NCBI RefSeq assembly: GCF_003987355.1
Contig: NZ_PIPR01000001.1
Span: 496,001-560,000, forward strand
Source: Pseudidiomarina aestuarii
GTDB taxonomy: Bacteria > Pseudomonadota > Gammaproteobacteria > Enterobacterales > Alteromonadaceae
Direction of reading: 5' to 3'
DNA: 64,000 nucleotides
The position numbers and the translations under genes were made by a program. The first letter of the stretch is position 1. Each line of letters begins with the position of its first letter. The notes beneath the pieces are model-generated. The model searched no databases, was not told the origin of the DNA, and saw only the letters and a program-made list of their open reading frames with translations. This document shows positions 13,438 through 16,550 of this stretch, one piece after another.

Positions 13438-13456
13438 CTCTGGAATGGTTCCAGAG
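13438..13456 (+). promoter_or_regulatory. Leader hairpin of the uvrY-like gene
   Basis: CTCTGGAA and TTCCAGAG form a perfect 8-bp stem with a TGG loop, 28 bases before the start codon. No run of T follows, so it is unlikely to be a terminator. It lies just upstream of a CsrA-like site and may shape access to it. Confidence 0.5.
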
Positions 13457-13483: not shown

Positions 13484-14140
13484 ATGACTGACTTCATCAT
13501 CGCTATTTCTAGCGATCTTGTGCGGGCTGGGATGTACGCCACTCTAAAAAGTAATAACTATCGAGTAGTAGCAAGCGTAAGCACGCTACAGCAGTTGCGC
13601 GATGAAGCAAAATCGTACCCTTATGCAACCGTTATTTTAGGAAGCCACTTCGGCGGTGACGGTACGATTGAGACATGGAAGCGTCTCCAACGTCGACATG
13701 ACGGTCTACAGTTGCTGCTGTGGGCACGGCATTTTCAAGATGTACTCGACTTTCAATGTAATCTTAAACAGGTCGATGGCTATTTACTTGAGAATGCAAA
13801 CTACGATGTTTTTCTCGAAGCCTGTGCTTCGGTGAATCGTGGCCAGATGTATGTGGCTCAAGCAGTCGCAGAATATTTTGCGAAGAATCCACGCCGCCAA
13901 CAGCAGGTCCGTGTTTTACAATCATTGAGTGATCGAGAGTTACAAGTCACGCAAATGATTGGCCGGGGCCTACGGGTGGCCGATATCGCGAAGTCGCTTA
14001 ATATCAGTTCGAAAACAGTCAATACGTTTCGTTATCGTATTTTTCAGAAGTTAGCGATTCGGGGAGATGTAGAACTGACCCATCTTGCGTTACAATCCGG
14101 TTTAATCGAGCTCGATTTTGCCGGAACTAATGACGACTAA
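13484..14140 (+). CDS. uvrY: UvrY/GacA-like regulator with a degenerate receiver domain
   Basis: This 218-residue protein aligns without gaps to UvrY at its start (SDLVRAG matches ELVRAG) and has an intact C-terminal LuxR-type helix-turn-helix (about 148-210: LSDRELQVTQMI, then SSKTVNTFRYRIFQKL). All residues needed for phosphorylation are replaced: the acidic pair is I8 and S9, the phosphoacceptor Asp is G53, the Thr is W80 and the Lys is E103. It is therefore unlikely to accept phosphate from BarA. The start was set by AAGGAAG upstream of 13484. Position before uvrC matches E. coli uvrY. The frame is clean, so this is not a decaying pseudogene. Confidence 0.85.
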   Translation: MTDFIIAISSDLVRAGMYATLKSNNYRVVASVSTLQQLRDEAKSYPYATVILGSHFGGDGTIETWKRLQRRHDGLQLLLWARHFQDVLDFQCNLKQVDGYLLENANYDVFLEACASVNRGQMYVAQAVAEYFAKNPRRQQQVRVLQSLSDRELQVTQMIGRGLRVADIAKSLNISSKTVNTFRYRIFQKLAIRGDVELTHLALQSGLIELDFAGTNDD

Positions 14141-15983
14141 ACCATTTGACTCAAAGGACTTTTTAAAAAACCTGACTCATCAATCTGGCGTGTACCGCAT
14201 GTTTGATGAGTCAGGCGAAGTGATTTATGTGGGTAAGGCGAAAGATCTCCGTAAACGTGTCGGTAGCTACTTTCGCGAAAAAGTCGATCGCCCAAAGACC
14301 CAAACACTTGTTGCACAAATCCATTCGATGGATGTCACCGTCACGAATTCCGAAGCGGAAGCTCTGATTCTCGAGAATAATTTCATCAAGAAGTATCGCC
14401 CGCGCTATAACGTGCTGCTGCGAGACGATAAATCCTATCCCTTTATTTTTGTATCTGGACATCAACATCCACGCCTCGCTTTTCATCGGGGTAGCCGGCG
14501 CGAGAAAGGCGACTACTTCGGTCCATTCCCCAACGGTTCAGCGGTTCGTGAAAGTTTGCGCTTGATGCAGAAGCTCTTTCCCGTTCGGCAGTGTGAGGAT
14601 TCCTATTACCGTGCTCGCAGTCGTCCCTGTCTGCAGTATCAGTTGCAGCGCTGTCTAGCGCCCTGTGTTGAGGGCTATACGACCGACGCCGAGTACAGTG
14701 AACAAGTTCAATTGGCAAAAGCCTTCTTGCAGGGGCGTAATCAACAGGTCATCGATCAGTTGGTCGTGCGAATGGAAGAAGCCAGCAATGAATTACAATT
14801 TGAAAAGGCGGCGCGCTATCGAGATCAAATATCTGCCTTGCGTAAAATTCAAGAACGGAACGCGGTCACCGGCAATCAGCAAGAGCTGGATGTTATCGGT
14901 TATGTGCGACGTGGTGGTATTGCGGCAGTCCATCTGCTCTTCATTCGCGAGGGTGCAGTGCAGGGCAGTCGTTCGTATTTTCCGCGAGTACCTCCGGATA
15001 CCGATGATAGTGAGATACTGCTCTCATTCATGTTGCAGTTCTATTTAAATACGTCTCTGGGCCGACGTTTACCACGAGAGATTATTCTGCCAGAGGCCAA
15101 CGCCACGCAATTACTCGATCCAGAACAAGATTTGGAATTACTAGAAGCTGCACTCGTGCAAAAGGTGCGGATCACAAACAAAGTTCGCGGTGAACGGAAG
15201 CAGTATCAAGTCTTAGCCCAGAAAAACGCTCTGAATGCACTAGAGAGCAAAATGAATCAAGCCTCGACGGCATTAATGCGAACGCAATGTCTGGAAGCAG
15301 TCCTTGATTTAGGTATTTCAATTCAGCGGATGGAATGTTTCGACATCAGCCACACTATGGGCCAAGAAACAGTCGCAAGTTGTGTTGTCTTTGATCAACA
15401 AGGCCCTAAAAAGAGTGATTACCGGCGTTTTAATATTAAAGGTATTACTCCAGGTGATGATTATGCGGCCATGGCGCAAGCGCTTGCCAAGCGTTACGAC
15501 CCAGTGAAGGATGATACGAGCGACGCTGCAGTTTTACCTGATATTTTGTTCATCGATGGAGGTAAGGGCCAGCTTAGTATGGCTGAGCAGTACTTTGCCG
15601 ATTGGGGAAGTCGTGCGCCGCTATTGATTGGTGTCGCCAAGGGCGAAAGCCGTACACCGGGCTTAGAGACTTTGATTATTGCGGGCAGTCATCAAACCAT
15701 TCCTCTCAAGGGCGATGATCCAGCACTGCATTTAGTTCAGCATATTCGCGACGAGTCGCATCGATTTGCCATTACGGGACATCGACAACGGCGTGCAAAG
15801 GTGCGGCGGACCTCGCGTTTAGAGGATATTCCGGGGATTGGCGCCAAGCGACGGCAAAAGATATTACAAAATCTCGGTGGATTACATGAAGTGAAACAAG
15901 CTAGTATTGAGCAACTTGCCGCCGTACCCGGCATCAGCCGAGACATGGCAGAAACCATTTACCATGCGTTTCGTGATGAATAA
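14130..15983 (+). CDS. uvrC: Excinuclease ABC subunit C
   Basis: This 617-residue nuclease makes both incisions in nucleotide excision repair with UvrB. Domains in order: GIY-YIG (GVYRMFDESGEVIYVGKAK near residues 20-40), a cysteine-rich stretch, a UvrB-binding UVR motif near 200-235, an RNase H-like endonuclease with FDISH and a DGGKGQ segment, and C-terminal helix-hairpin-helix pairs (IPGIGAKRRQKIL and VPGISRDMAETI). The ATG at 14130 overlaps the uvrY-like gene by 11 bases, so translation is probably coupled. Confidence 0.97.
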   Translation: MTTKPFDSKDFLKNLTHQSGVYRMFDESGEVIYVGKAKDLRKRVGSYFREKVDRPKTQTLVAQIHSMDVTVTNSEAEALILENNFIKKYRPRYNVLLRDDKSYPFIFVSGHQHPRLAFHRGSRREKGDYFGPFPNGSAVRESLRLMQKLFPVRQCEDSYYRARSRPCLQYQLQRCLAPCVEGYTTDAEYSEQVQLAKAFLQGRNQQVIDQLVVRMEEASNELQFEKAARYRDQISALRKIQERNAVTGNQQELDVIGYVRRGGIAAVHLLFIREGAVQGSRSYFPRVPPDTDDSEILLSFMLQFYLNTSLGRRLPREIILPEANATQLLDPEQDLELLEAALVQKVRITNKVRGERKQYQVLAQKNALNALESKMNQASTALMRTQCLEAVLDLGISIQRMECFDISHTMGQETVASCVVFDQQGPKKSDYRRFNIKGITPGDDYAAMAQALAKRYDPVKDDTSDAAVLPDILFIDGGKGQLSMAEQYFADWGSRAPLLIGVAKGESRTPGLETLIIAGSHQTIPLKGDDPALHLVQHIRDESHRFAITGHRQRRAKVRRTSRLEDIPGIGAKRRQKILQNLGGLHEVKQASIEQLAAVPGISRDMAETIYHAFRDE

Positions 15984-15998
15984 AGGATAATTGCAGTA

Positions 15999-16550
15999 AT
16001 GACCTGGAATGTACCCAACCTCCTGACACTGTTCCGGCTTGCGCTGATTCCGGTGTTTTTAATTATTTATTATATTCCCGGACAAGATGCTCACTTTTGG
16101 GCTGCTTTTGTTTTTGCTCTGGCGGCTATCACAGATTTTTTTGACGGCTACATTGCGCGTCGTTTTAACCAATTTACCAAGTTCGGTGCATTTTTAGACC
16201 CAGTGGCTGATAAGGTGATGGTTGCTGCATCTCTCGTGGTGGTCGTAGAAGATTACGCGACTTGGTGGGTGAGCATCCCAGCTCTAGCGATTATCAGCCG
16301 TGAATTGGTCGTTTCTGCGCTACGTGAATGGATGGCACAAATTGGTCGCCAAGAACAAGTCAAAGTATCAAATTTAGGAAAGTACAAGACCATTGCACAA
16401 ATGGTGGCGATCACAGGTCTTATTTGGGAGGCAAACACCTTCGTGATTGTGACTGCGGCGATATTATTGTACGTGGCGTTTGTTCTGACGCTGTGGTCCA
16501 TGTGGGCATATTTACGTGCTGCATGGGCAGATTTGAGCGAAGTGGATTAA
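15999..16550 (+). CDS. pgsA: CDP-diacylglycerol--glycerol-3-phosphate 3-phosphatidyltransferase
   Basis: This 183-residue inner-membrane enzyme makes phosphatidylglycerol phosphate, the first committed step to phosphatidylglycerol and cardiolipin. The CDP-alcohol phosphatidyltransferase motif DG-x2-AR-x8-G-x3-D-x3-D is visible as DGYIARRFNQFTKFGAFLD followed by PVADK. Several hydrophobic helices span the rest. It lies 15 bases after uvrC and before a Gly-Cys-Leu tRNA cluster, the same order as in E. coli. Confidence 0.96.
   Translation: MTWNVPNLLTLFRLALIPVFLIIYYIPGQDAHFWAAFVFALAAITDFFDGYIARRFNQFTKFGAFLDPVADKVMVAASLVVVVEDYATWWVSIPALAIISRELVVSALREWMAQIGRQEQVKVSNLGKYKTIAQMVAITGLIWEANTFVIVTAAILLYVAFVLTLWSMWAYLRAAWADLSEVD

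Follow-up and report, generated by a model that had tools for sequence, protein, structure and literature searches.

The uvrY gene of Pseudidiomarina aestuarii encodes a UvrY/GacA-type regulator in which all five residues of the phosphorylation site are replaced, and this loss recurs across a clade made up of Idiomarina, Pseudidiomarina and two sister genera. Judged from the genomes compared here, the BarA-UvrY-CsrB relay looks dismantled in this clade, and UvrY seems to have been retained as a DNA-binding regulator that cannot be phosphorylated. The reading that we prefer, and regard as moderately probable, is that UvrY with a rebuilt receiver, with BarA and csrB gone and CsrA kept, binds DNA free of phosphate, and that its output is set mainly by the amount of the protein. 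The features concerned lie in a stretch of 64,000 nucleotides, called the window below, and are collected in Table 1.

Table 1. Features of the uvrY region, with positions in the window
Feature	Position	Strand	Basis
5' leader hairpin CTCTGGAA-TGG-TTCCAGAG, 46 to 28 nt before the ATG	13438..13456	+	
uvrY-position gene, pseudo-receiver and LuxR/GerE HTH regulator, 218 aa	13484..14140	+	
Receiver domain, residues 1-120, five phosphorylation residues all replaced	13484..13843	+	
I8-S9 codons, in place of the Asp8-Asp9 metal site	13505..13510	+	E. coli UvrY alignment
G53 codon, in place of phosphoacceptor Asp54	13640..13642	+	E. coli UvrY alignment
A81 codon, in place of switch Thr82	13724..13726	+	E. 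coli UvrY alignment
Newly fixed alpha4 stretch QDVLDFQCN, residues 85-93, including Cys92	13736..13762	+	
E103 codon, in place of Lys104	13790..13792	+	E. coli UvrY alignment
GerE/LuxR DNA-binding domain, residues 146-202	13919..14089	+	Pfam; E. coli UvrY HTH, 61% over 61 aa
uvrC, start overlapping the 3' end of uvrY, ATG 14130	14130..15983	+	
pgsA-position gene, named by position and E. coli order alone	15999..16550	+	

The uvrY gene and the loss of its phosphorylation residues

The uvrY frame is uninterrupted from its ATG at 13484 to the stop codon at 14138-14140. It is followed by uvrC, the pgsA-position gene and then tRNA-Gly, tRNA-Cys and tRNA-Leu, and this uvrY-uvrC-pgsA-tRNA order is that of E. 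coli K-12. The best NCBIfam family of the encoded protein is UvrY/SirA/GacA (NF007018), with 120.6 bits, which does not reach the cut-off of 280. According to Pfam, the GerE domain passes its cut-off of 23.5 with 59.9 bits, and Response_reg stays below its cut-off of 30.2 with 15.2 bits, the receiver being about 20% identical to that of E. coli UvrY. The neighbours and the HTH domain, which is 61% identical over 61 aa to its E. coli counterpart, identify the gene at sequence level as the UvrY/GacA orthologue in a bacterium of Idiomarinaceae type. An earlier note on this DNA had placed the gene in the conserved uvrY-uvrC-pgsA position with an intact LuxR-type DNA-binding domain, and both statements are borne out.

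The receiver of the window protein retains none of D8, D9, D54, T82 and K104 (E. coli UvrY numbering) and thus lacks the usual Asp-phosphorylation chemistry, as the earlier note had proposed. The individual substitutions that it listed stand for four residues, with Asp8 replaced by I8, Asp9 by S9, Asp54 by G53 and Lys104 by E103; the fifth needs correction, because Thr82 aligns with Ala81 and not with Trp80, which aligns with Leu81.

A scan of species genomes returned 11 relatives of the window protein, 57-74% identical to it, from ten Idiomarina or Pseudidiomarina records and one gammaproteobacterial MAG. The gene uvrC is present in all 118 genomes of the sampled family (52 genera), and the region upstream of it was taken from 60 of the 117 genomes other than the window's own, so that every one of the 51 other genera is represented at least once and the window genus three times. 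A UvrY homologue was found in all 60 regions, two of them (L051 and L052) with broken frames. The 20 rows referred to as affected comprise the window gene, the 11 loci of the scan, three g1 loci and the loci of the sister genera g11 (two) and g28 (three), P. marina being represented twice (L008 and L038). None of the five phosphorylation residues is left in 19 of the 20 affected rows, and the remaining one (L093) keeps one, versus all five in 50 of the 52 rows from the rest of the sampled family and four in the other two (L046 and L073); these counts take in L038, L051, L052, L073, L014 and the g11 rows and do not include E. coli. Such a distribution is beyond chance. A UvrC tree of 36 rows, which was rooted away from the E. 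coli side and omits L014, unites 19 affected rows in one group (support 100/97) that is sister to the other family rows, and it is by this tree that g11 and g28 are assigned to the affected clade. The substitutions are therefore common to the Idiomarina/Pseudidiomarina clade and, as far as the aligned rows tell, the residue loss is clade-wide, extending to the two sister genera, and is not local decay.

As separate observations, the UvrY of G007 (L046) is canonical save for an Asp54 to Gly change, and the broken uvrY frames L051 and L052 come from G012 and G013. These three may be natural gac mutants or sequencing errors.

Constraint on the receiver and the uvrY leader

Receiver dN/dS was 0.03-0.13 (NG86) in 22 pairs of affected rows, those with measurable receiver dS out of the 30 closest (136 pairs in total); the set leaves out the g11 rows, and more distant pairs are saturated. 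The earlier note had described the frame as clean and apparently maintained, and had taken a dN/dS near 1 as the mark of a relic; none of the 22 pairs approaches such a value, and they show the coding sequence of the protein to be kept by purifying selection in the affected clade. The mean nonsynonymous divergence of the receiver relative to that of the HTH was 1.74 in 17 affected rows versus 0.90 in 19 chosen canonical rows, so the affected receivers are constrained, yet less than those of canonical UvrY.

Thirty-six receiver positions are newly fixed, that is, the same residue is shared by at least 13 of the 14 Idiomarina/Pseudidiomarina-type rows and is carried by under 10% of the canonical rows, a set of 50 that contains E. 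coli; L038, the broken frames L051 and L052, and L073, whose N-terminus is unsure, were left out. These positions are not independent events because the rows are related. Many of them lie in alpha3/alpha4, namely D59, T61, W65, R67, R71, W80, Q85, D89, Q91 and C92, and there are receiver positions that are invariant across 12 and 17 rows. Cys92 is present in all 14 Idiomarina/Pseudidiomarina-type rows and in all three g28 rows and is replaced by Phe in both g11 rows; the canonical residue at this position is Val in 49 and Ile in one of the 50 rows. An AlphaFold2 model of the receiver (residues 1-126) has the (beta-alpha)5 arrangement, with a pLDDT of 89.7 and a pTM of 0.84, and the solved structures nearest to it in Foldseek are NarL/FixJ receivers, including those of RcsB and DesR. 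The receiver fold is accordingly predicted to be intact. The full-length AlphaFold model is weak (pLDDT 60.6) and was used for structure search only.

The leader of uvrY carries a hairpin, for which a search with Rfam families returned no match at E ≤ 1 in the stretch covered. Since the hairpins were not brought into register by a MAFFT alignment of the leaders, a script was used to count pairs, each helix being the best in the scanned window, with L038 left out as a duplicate of L008. The full helix of eight pairs occurs in 12 of the 14 Idiomarina/Pseudidiomarina-type leaders, and the other two have seven of the eight. It occurs in four of 52 canonical leaders; seven or eight pairs occur in 35 of those 52, which makes seven pairs uninformative. 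The eight-pair helix is missing from all five leaders of g28 and g11. Mononucleotide shuffles of the 14 leaders reached eight pairs in 0.7-9% of cases. The stronger argument that the helix is a structure comes from its variation, because among 11 distinct versions each of the eight pairs is altered on both sides at least once. The hairpin may act as an mRNA stabiliser or a control element. A -35/-10 pair read by eye before the hairpin was discarded, as the promoter scan gave no support for it.

The earlier note had suggested that the phosphorelay was replaced by control of protein amount or by a ligand, and we infer the same pair of options; the leader hairpin, with its compensatory changes, and the newly fixed receiver residues, Cys92 included, make both of them testable. 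The ligand option belongs to the main alternative to our reading, in which the rebuilt alpha3-alpha4 face would directly receive a new input, be it a ligand, a redox change or a protein partner. According to this alternative, the receiver would be a one-component sensor in which a ligand, Cys92 redox or a partner on that face switches DNA binding. We hold it possible, if on the unlikely side. It would account for alpha3-alpha4 residues that canonical UvrY seldom has and that are fixed, or nearly so, across the 14 Idiomarina/Pseudidiomarina-type rows, and for the presence of Cys92 in all 17 Idiomarina/Pseudidiomarina-type and g28 rows. As well, the pseudo-receivers described in the part of PMC12632262 available to us include ones under ligands (JadR1, RedZ, CikA, KaiA) or under Cys redox (RitR, HP1021). 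However, both g11 rows lack the cysteine and several other residues of the face differ there too, and the placement of these residues on one face derives from helix positions of the predicted model, not from coordinates.

BarA, CsrA and csrB in the affected genomes

The BarA profile was run on 20 genomes, nine affected and 11 others. A kinase tree was made of 30 of the 40 matched kinases together with E. coli BarA, the ten matches without a locus all coming from unaffected genomes. Because this tree has very long branches and a midpoint root, only its split between the BarA group and other kinases was used. E. coli BarA groups (100/100) with kinases of G002, G003, G005, G017, G022, G030, G045, G050 and G055, all nine of which are unaffected. 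In all nine affected genomes the kinase with the best BarA-profile match lies outside this group, so profile and tree detected no BarA-group kinase there. The kinases of G002, G005 and G055 have no recognisable BarA N-terminus, so the name BarA applies to the group in a broad sense. By coordinates, BarA adjoins rlmD in G003, G017, G022, G030 and G045; no BarA was seen beside rlmD in the seven affected genomes examined, nor in G006, G055, G090, G005, G002 and G050. The genomes G006 and G090 have a canonical UvrY and csrB, yet no BarA-group kinase, which indicates that BarA absence and receiver loss are not strictly coupled.

In the window's own genome, C1:106483 (L025) was considered as BarA on account of its 535 bits to the BarA profile, the next match having 102 bits. 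It contains HisKA, HATPase, two receivers and Hpt, but was rejected because it is without the BarA N-terminus and falls outside the BarA group. A hybrid kinase is situated about 4-5 kb from csrA in all nine affected genomes, and in the window's own genome this is C1:106483, with csrA at C1:102163. As a further observation, CsrA matches were multiple in six of the nine affected genomes, whereas the 11 others had a single match apiece.

CsrA is present in all 20 genomes. Its decoy RNA gene, csrB, was sought by three tests that are not fully independent of each other. With RF00018 at E ≤ 0.1, csrB was found in none of the nine affected genomes versus eight of the 11 others, although all matches are below the gathering score and that of G005 is weak and partial. 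Our own model R1, which is built on sequence only and has no base pairs, gave no csrB at E ≤ 0.01 in the nine affected genomes versus 15 of 21 others, two of the latter being its training genomes. At E ≤ 1, R1 produced weak matches without a GGA cluster in three of the nine affected genomes and likewise in G062 and G050.

The third test relied on position. A GNAT-type gene precedes csrB in G055, G002 and G003, and at this locus a dense GGA cluster (13-15 motifs per 220 nt) is present in G055, G006, G090 and G005 and absent in G050, that is, four of five other genomes have it, versus none of the nine affected ones (2-4 motifs). G050 thus keeps a canonical UvrY with no csrB at the GNAT locus. 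The DUF3301-type and DUF3549-type neighbours of the locus are retained in eight of the nine affected genomes, the exception being G010. The order in the window's own genome is QueF, Syd, GNAT, Mpo1-like, DUF3301 and DUF3549, and E. coli has csrB flanked by yqcC and syd, beside queF. The GNAT query (L102) has no Pfam match, and its homologue in the window's own genome has one. The labels 'YqcC-like' and 'DUF3192-like', which were tried for neighbours of the locus, were guesses and have been dropped, the first being DUF3301 by Pfam in the window's own genome.

The sensitivity of these tests is limited. RF00018 misses G006 and G090 (L218 and L219) despite their GGA clusters, so absence by RF00018 alone is weak evidence, and R1 finds nothing in G045 and G014. 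Given such misses, and since the affected clade is sister to the other family rows, the loss of csrB is likely rather than proven; a diverged csrB could sit elsewhere in the affected genomes. Taken with the kinase tree, BarA and csrB are likely to be absent from the nine affected genomes searched. The csrB region of G055 (L217, 2384-3047) contains repeated near-identical units and 33 GGA motifs, and G005 (L220) apparently has two csrB-like clusters in tandem.

These searches also bear on the idea that the relay is intact but hidden, with a diverged kinase of non-Asp chemistry and a diverged decoy RNA elsewhere in the genome, which we consider improbable. In its favour are the known misses of the RNA models and the KEGG-based survey PMC7366521, where the part available to us, drawing on KEGG orthology, counts Idiomarina among the genera with GacS, GacA and LadS. 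This GacS listing conflicts with the kinase tree of the nine affected genomes; moreover, every catalytic residue is gone in 19 of the 20 affected rows, and the three csrB tests, for all their partial dependence, were negative in nine of nine affected genomes.

GacA boxes with at most one mismatch number six in the window's own genome versus two sites in the reversed control, 61 versus 32 in the nine affected genomes and 103 versus 62 in the eleven others. A looser form of the box gave 17 sites versus 13 control sites in the window's own genome, none of them exact. The affected genomes come close to the others in this respect, and the counts point clearly neither to retention of the regulon nor to its loss. 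A box-like site in L204 with downstream GGA motifs was tried as a csrB candidate and rejected, as it precedes an ORF that is H-NS-like by eye. The site itself (L204 1501-1518; C1:746058 in the window's own genome) is a one-mismatch GacA box about 90 bases before that ORF, and it is possible that it is a UvrY target or a chance occurrence. The g11 genomes G010 and G059 contain recurring palindromes of the form GTAAGTNNNNACTTAC, perhaps the site of another regulator.

The earlier note had held that a second canonical uvrY would make the window gene a relic, and no such gene was found in the window's own genome. NF007018 matches seven places there, the window protein being second by score, and the HTH of E. 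coli UvrY matches the window protein and, as the sole other place, one with 27% identity over 52 aa. The locus C1:1909092 scores higher on NF007018 than the window protein (130 vs 120 bits), but it has no UvrY-like HTH and was therefore taken for a different NarL/FixJ pair; by eye, its receiver is canonical-looking and a histidine-kinase-like gene adjoins it. BglJ and RcsA are known to heterodimerise with RcsB as non-phosphorylated partners, and the six other matches to the UvrY profile, which are of NarL/FixJ type, would offer UvrY candidates for a comparable role as the non-phosphorylated partner of another NarL/FixJ regulator. However, none of the six has a UvrY-like HTH and no genetic link to any of them was seen, and we consider such a role quite improbable.

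Finally, a decaying relic, or a frame held open only for ribosome access to the overlapping uvrC start, might be suggested by the position of that start within the last uvrY codons and by a receiver-to-HTH divergence above that of canonical rows, but it is highly improbable, because translational coupling would not constrain amino acids and the low receiver dN/dS, together with receiver positions invariant across 12 and 17 rows, largely refutes it.

Proposed mechanism and comparison with known systems

In the preferred reading, that of a UvrY acting through its amount, the receiver would have become a pseudo-receiver in the common ancestor of Idiomarina, Pseudidiomarina and the two sister genera. 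The kinase BarA and the decoy RNA gene csrB, neither of which was found in the clade genomes searched, would have been lost with CsrA retained. UvrY would most likely need no phosphate to bind DNA, its own sequence favouring the dimer, and would act on targets other than csrB. Its output would be set mainly by protein quantity, to which the leader hairpin may contribute. E. coli UvrY has been reported to need phosphorylation for tight DNA binding in the part of PMC4682653 available to us, which also cites older work in which SirA bound with little or no phosphorylation required; the activity of the rebuilt UvrY without phosphate is therefore not given. A bolder version, in which Idiomarinaceae dismantled BarA-UvrY-CsrB and kept CsrA and UvrY is now a one-component regulator with a new alpha3-alpha4 signal and a new regulon, seems to us unlikely.

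The Gac/Csr cascade counts as a hallmark of the Gammaproteobacteria. A whole clade in which CsrA and UvrY are present and neither a BarA-group kinase nor a phosphosite nor a decoy RNA can be detected would, if true, be a natural exception to it. Such a clade would make it possible to test directly the roles of UvrY besides csrB, the way in which a response regulator outlives its relay, and the control of CsrA where there is no decoy. Related canonical and rebuilt UvrY orthologues can be compared here. No report of a UvrY without a phosphosite in Idiomarinaceae was found in the literature searched, most subscription journals being outside that search.

Similar to UvrY, GacA, SirA and VarA (NF007018), the window protein has the uvrY-uvrC-pgsA position, the length, a predicted receiver fold and a UvrY-type HTH. 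Unlike them, it is without the phosphorylation quintet, its receiver has little identity to that of E. coli (about one residue in five), and neither a BarA-group kinase nor csrB was found in the nine affected genomes searched.

Pseudo-receivers are already known as a kind of regulator, and by its predicted fold and its lack of all five residues the window receiver appears to fit the pseudo-receiver definition in the part of PMC12632262 available to us. The modes of action that this part discusses, whether known or proposed, are constitutive activity regulated through synthesis, dimerisation by Cys redox and the binding of ligands. With the pseudo-receiver or aspartate-less regulators of PMC12632262 and PMC4395418, as described in the parts available, the window protein shares a receiver fold without catalytic residues and a DNA-binding output. 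It differs from them in that a core, normally phosphorylated orthologue appears to have been converted clade-wide, and in that its own kinase and main target are apparently absent. The main texts of these two papers mention UvrY and GacA nowhere.

The c-di-GMP motif W[FLM][TS]R was not seen by eye in the window protein. Similar to the window protein, VpsT and CsgD have the NarL/FixJ architecture, and VpsT is among both its sequence and its structure matches; unlike UvrY with 120.6 bits, CsgD matches the window protein more weakly, with 45.9 bits (NCBIfam). Both VpsT and CsgD are named among pseudo-receiver structures in the available part of PMC12632262.

A parallel in control, according to the parts of PMC11045786 and PMC12442407 available to us, is offered by SsoR of Shewanella oneidensis, which differs from the window protein in being of OmpR/PhoB type, with its Asp kept and an unrelated DNA-binding domain, and resembles it, on the reading preferred here, in being an orphan regulator that is active without phosphorylation and controlled by dose.
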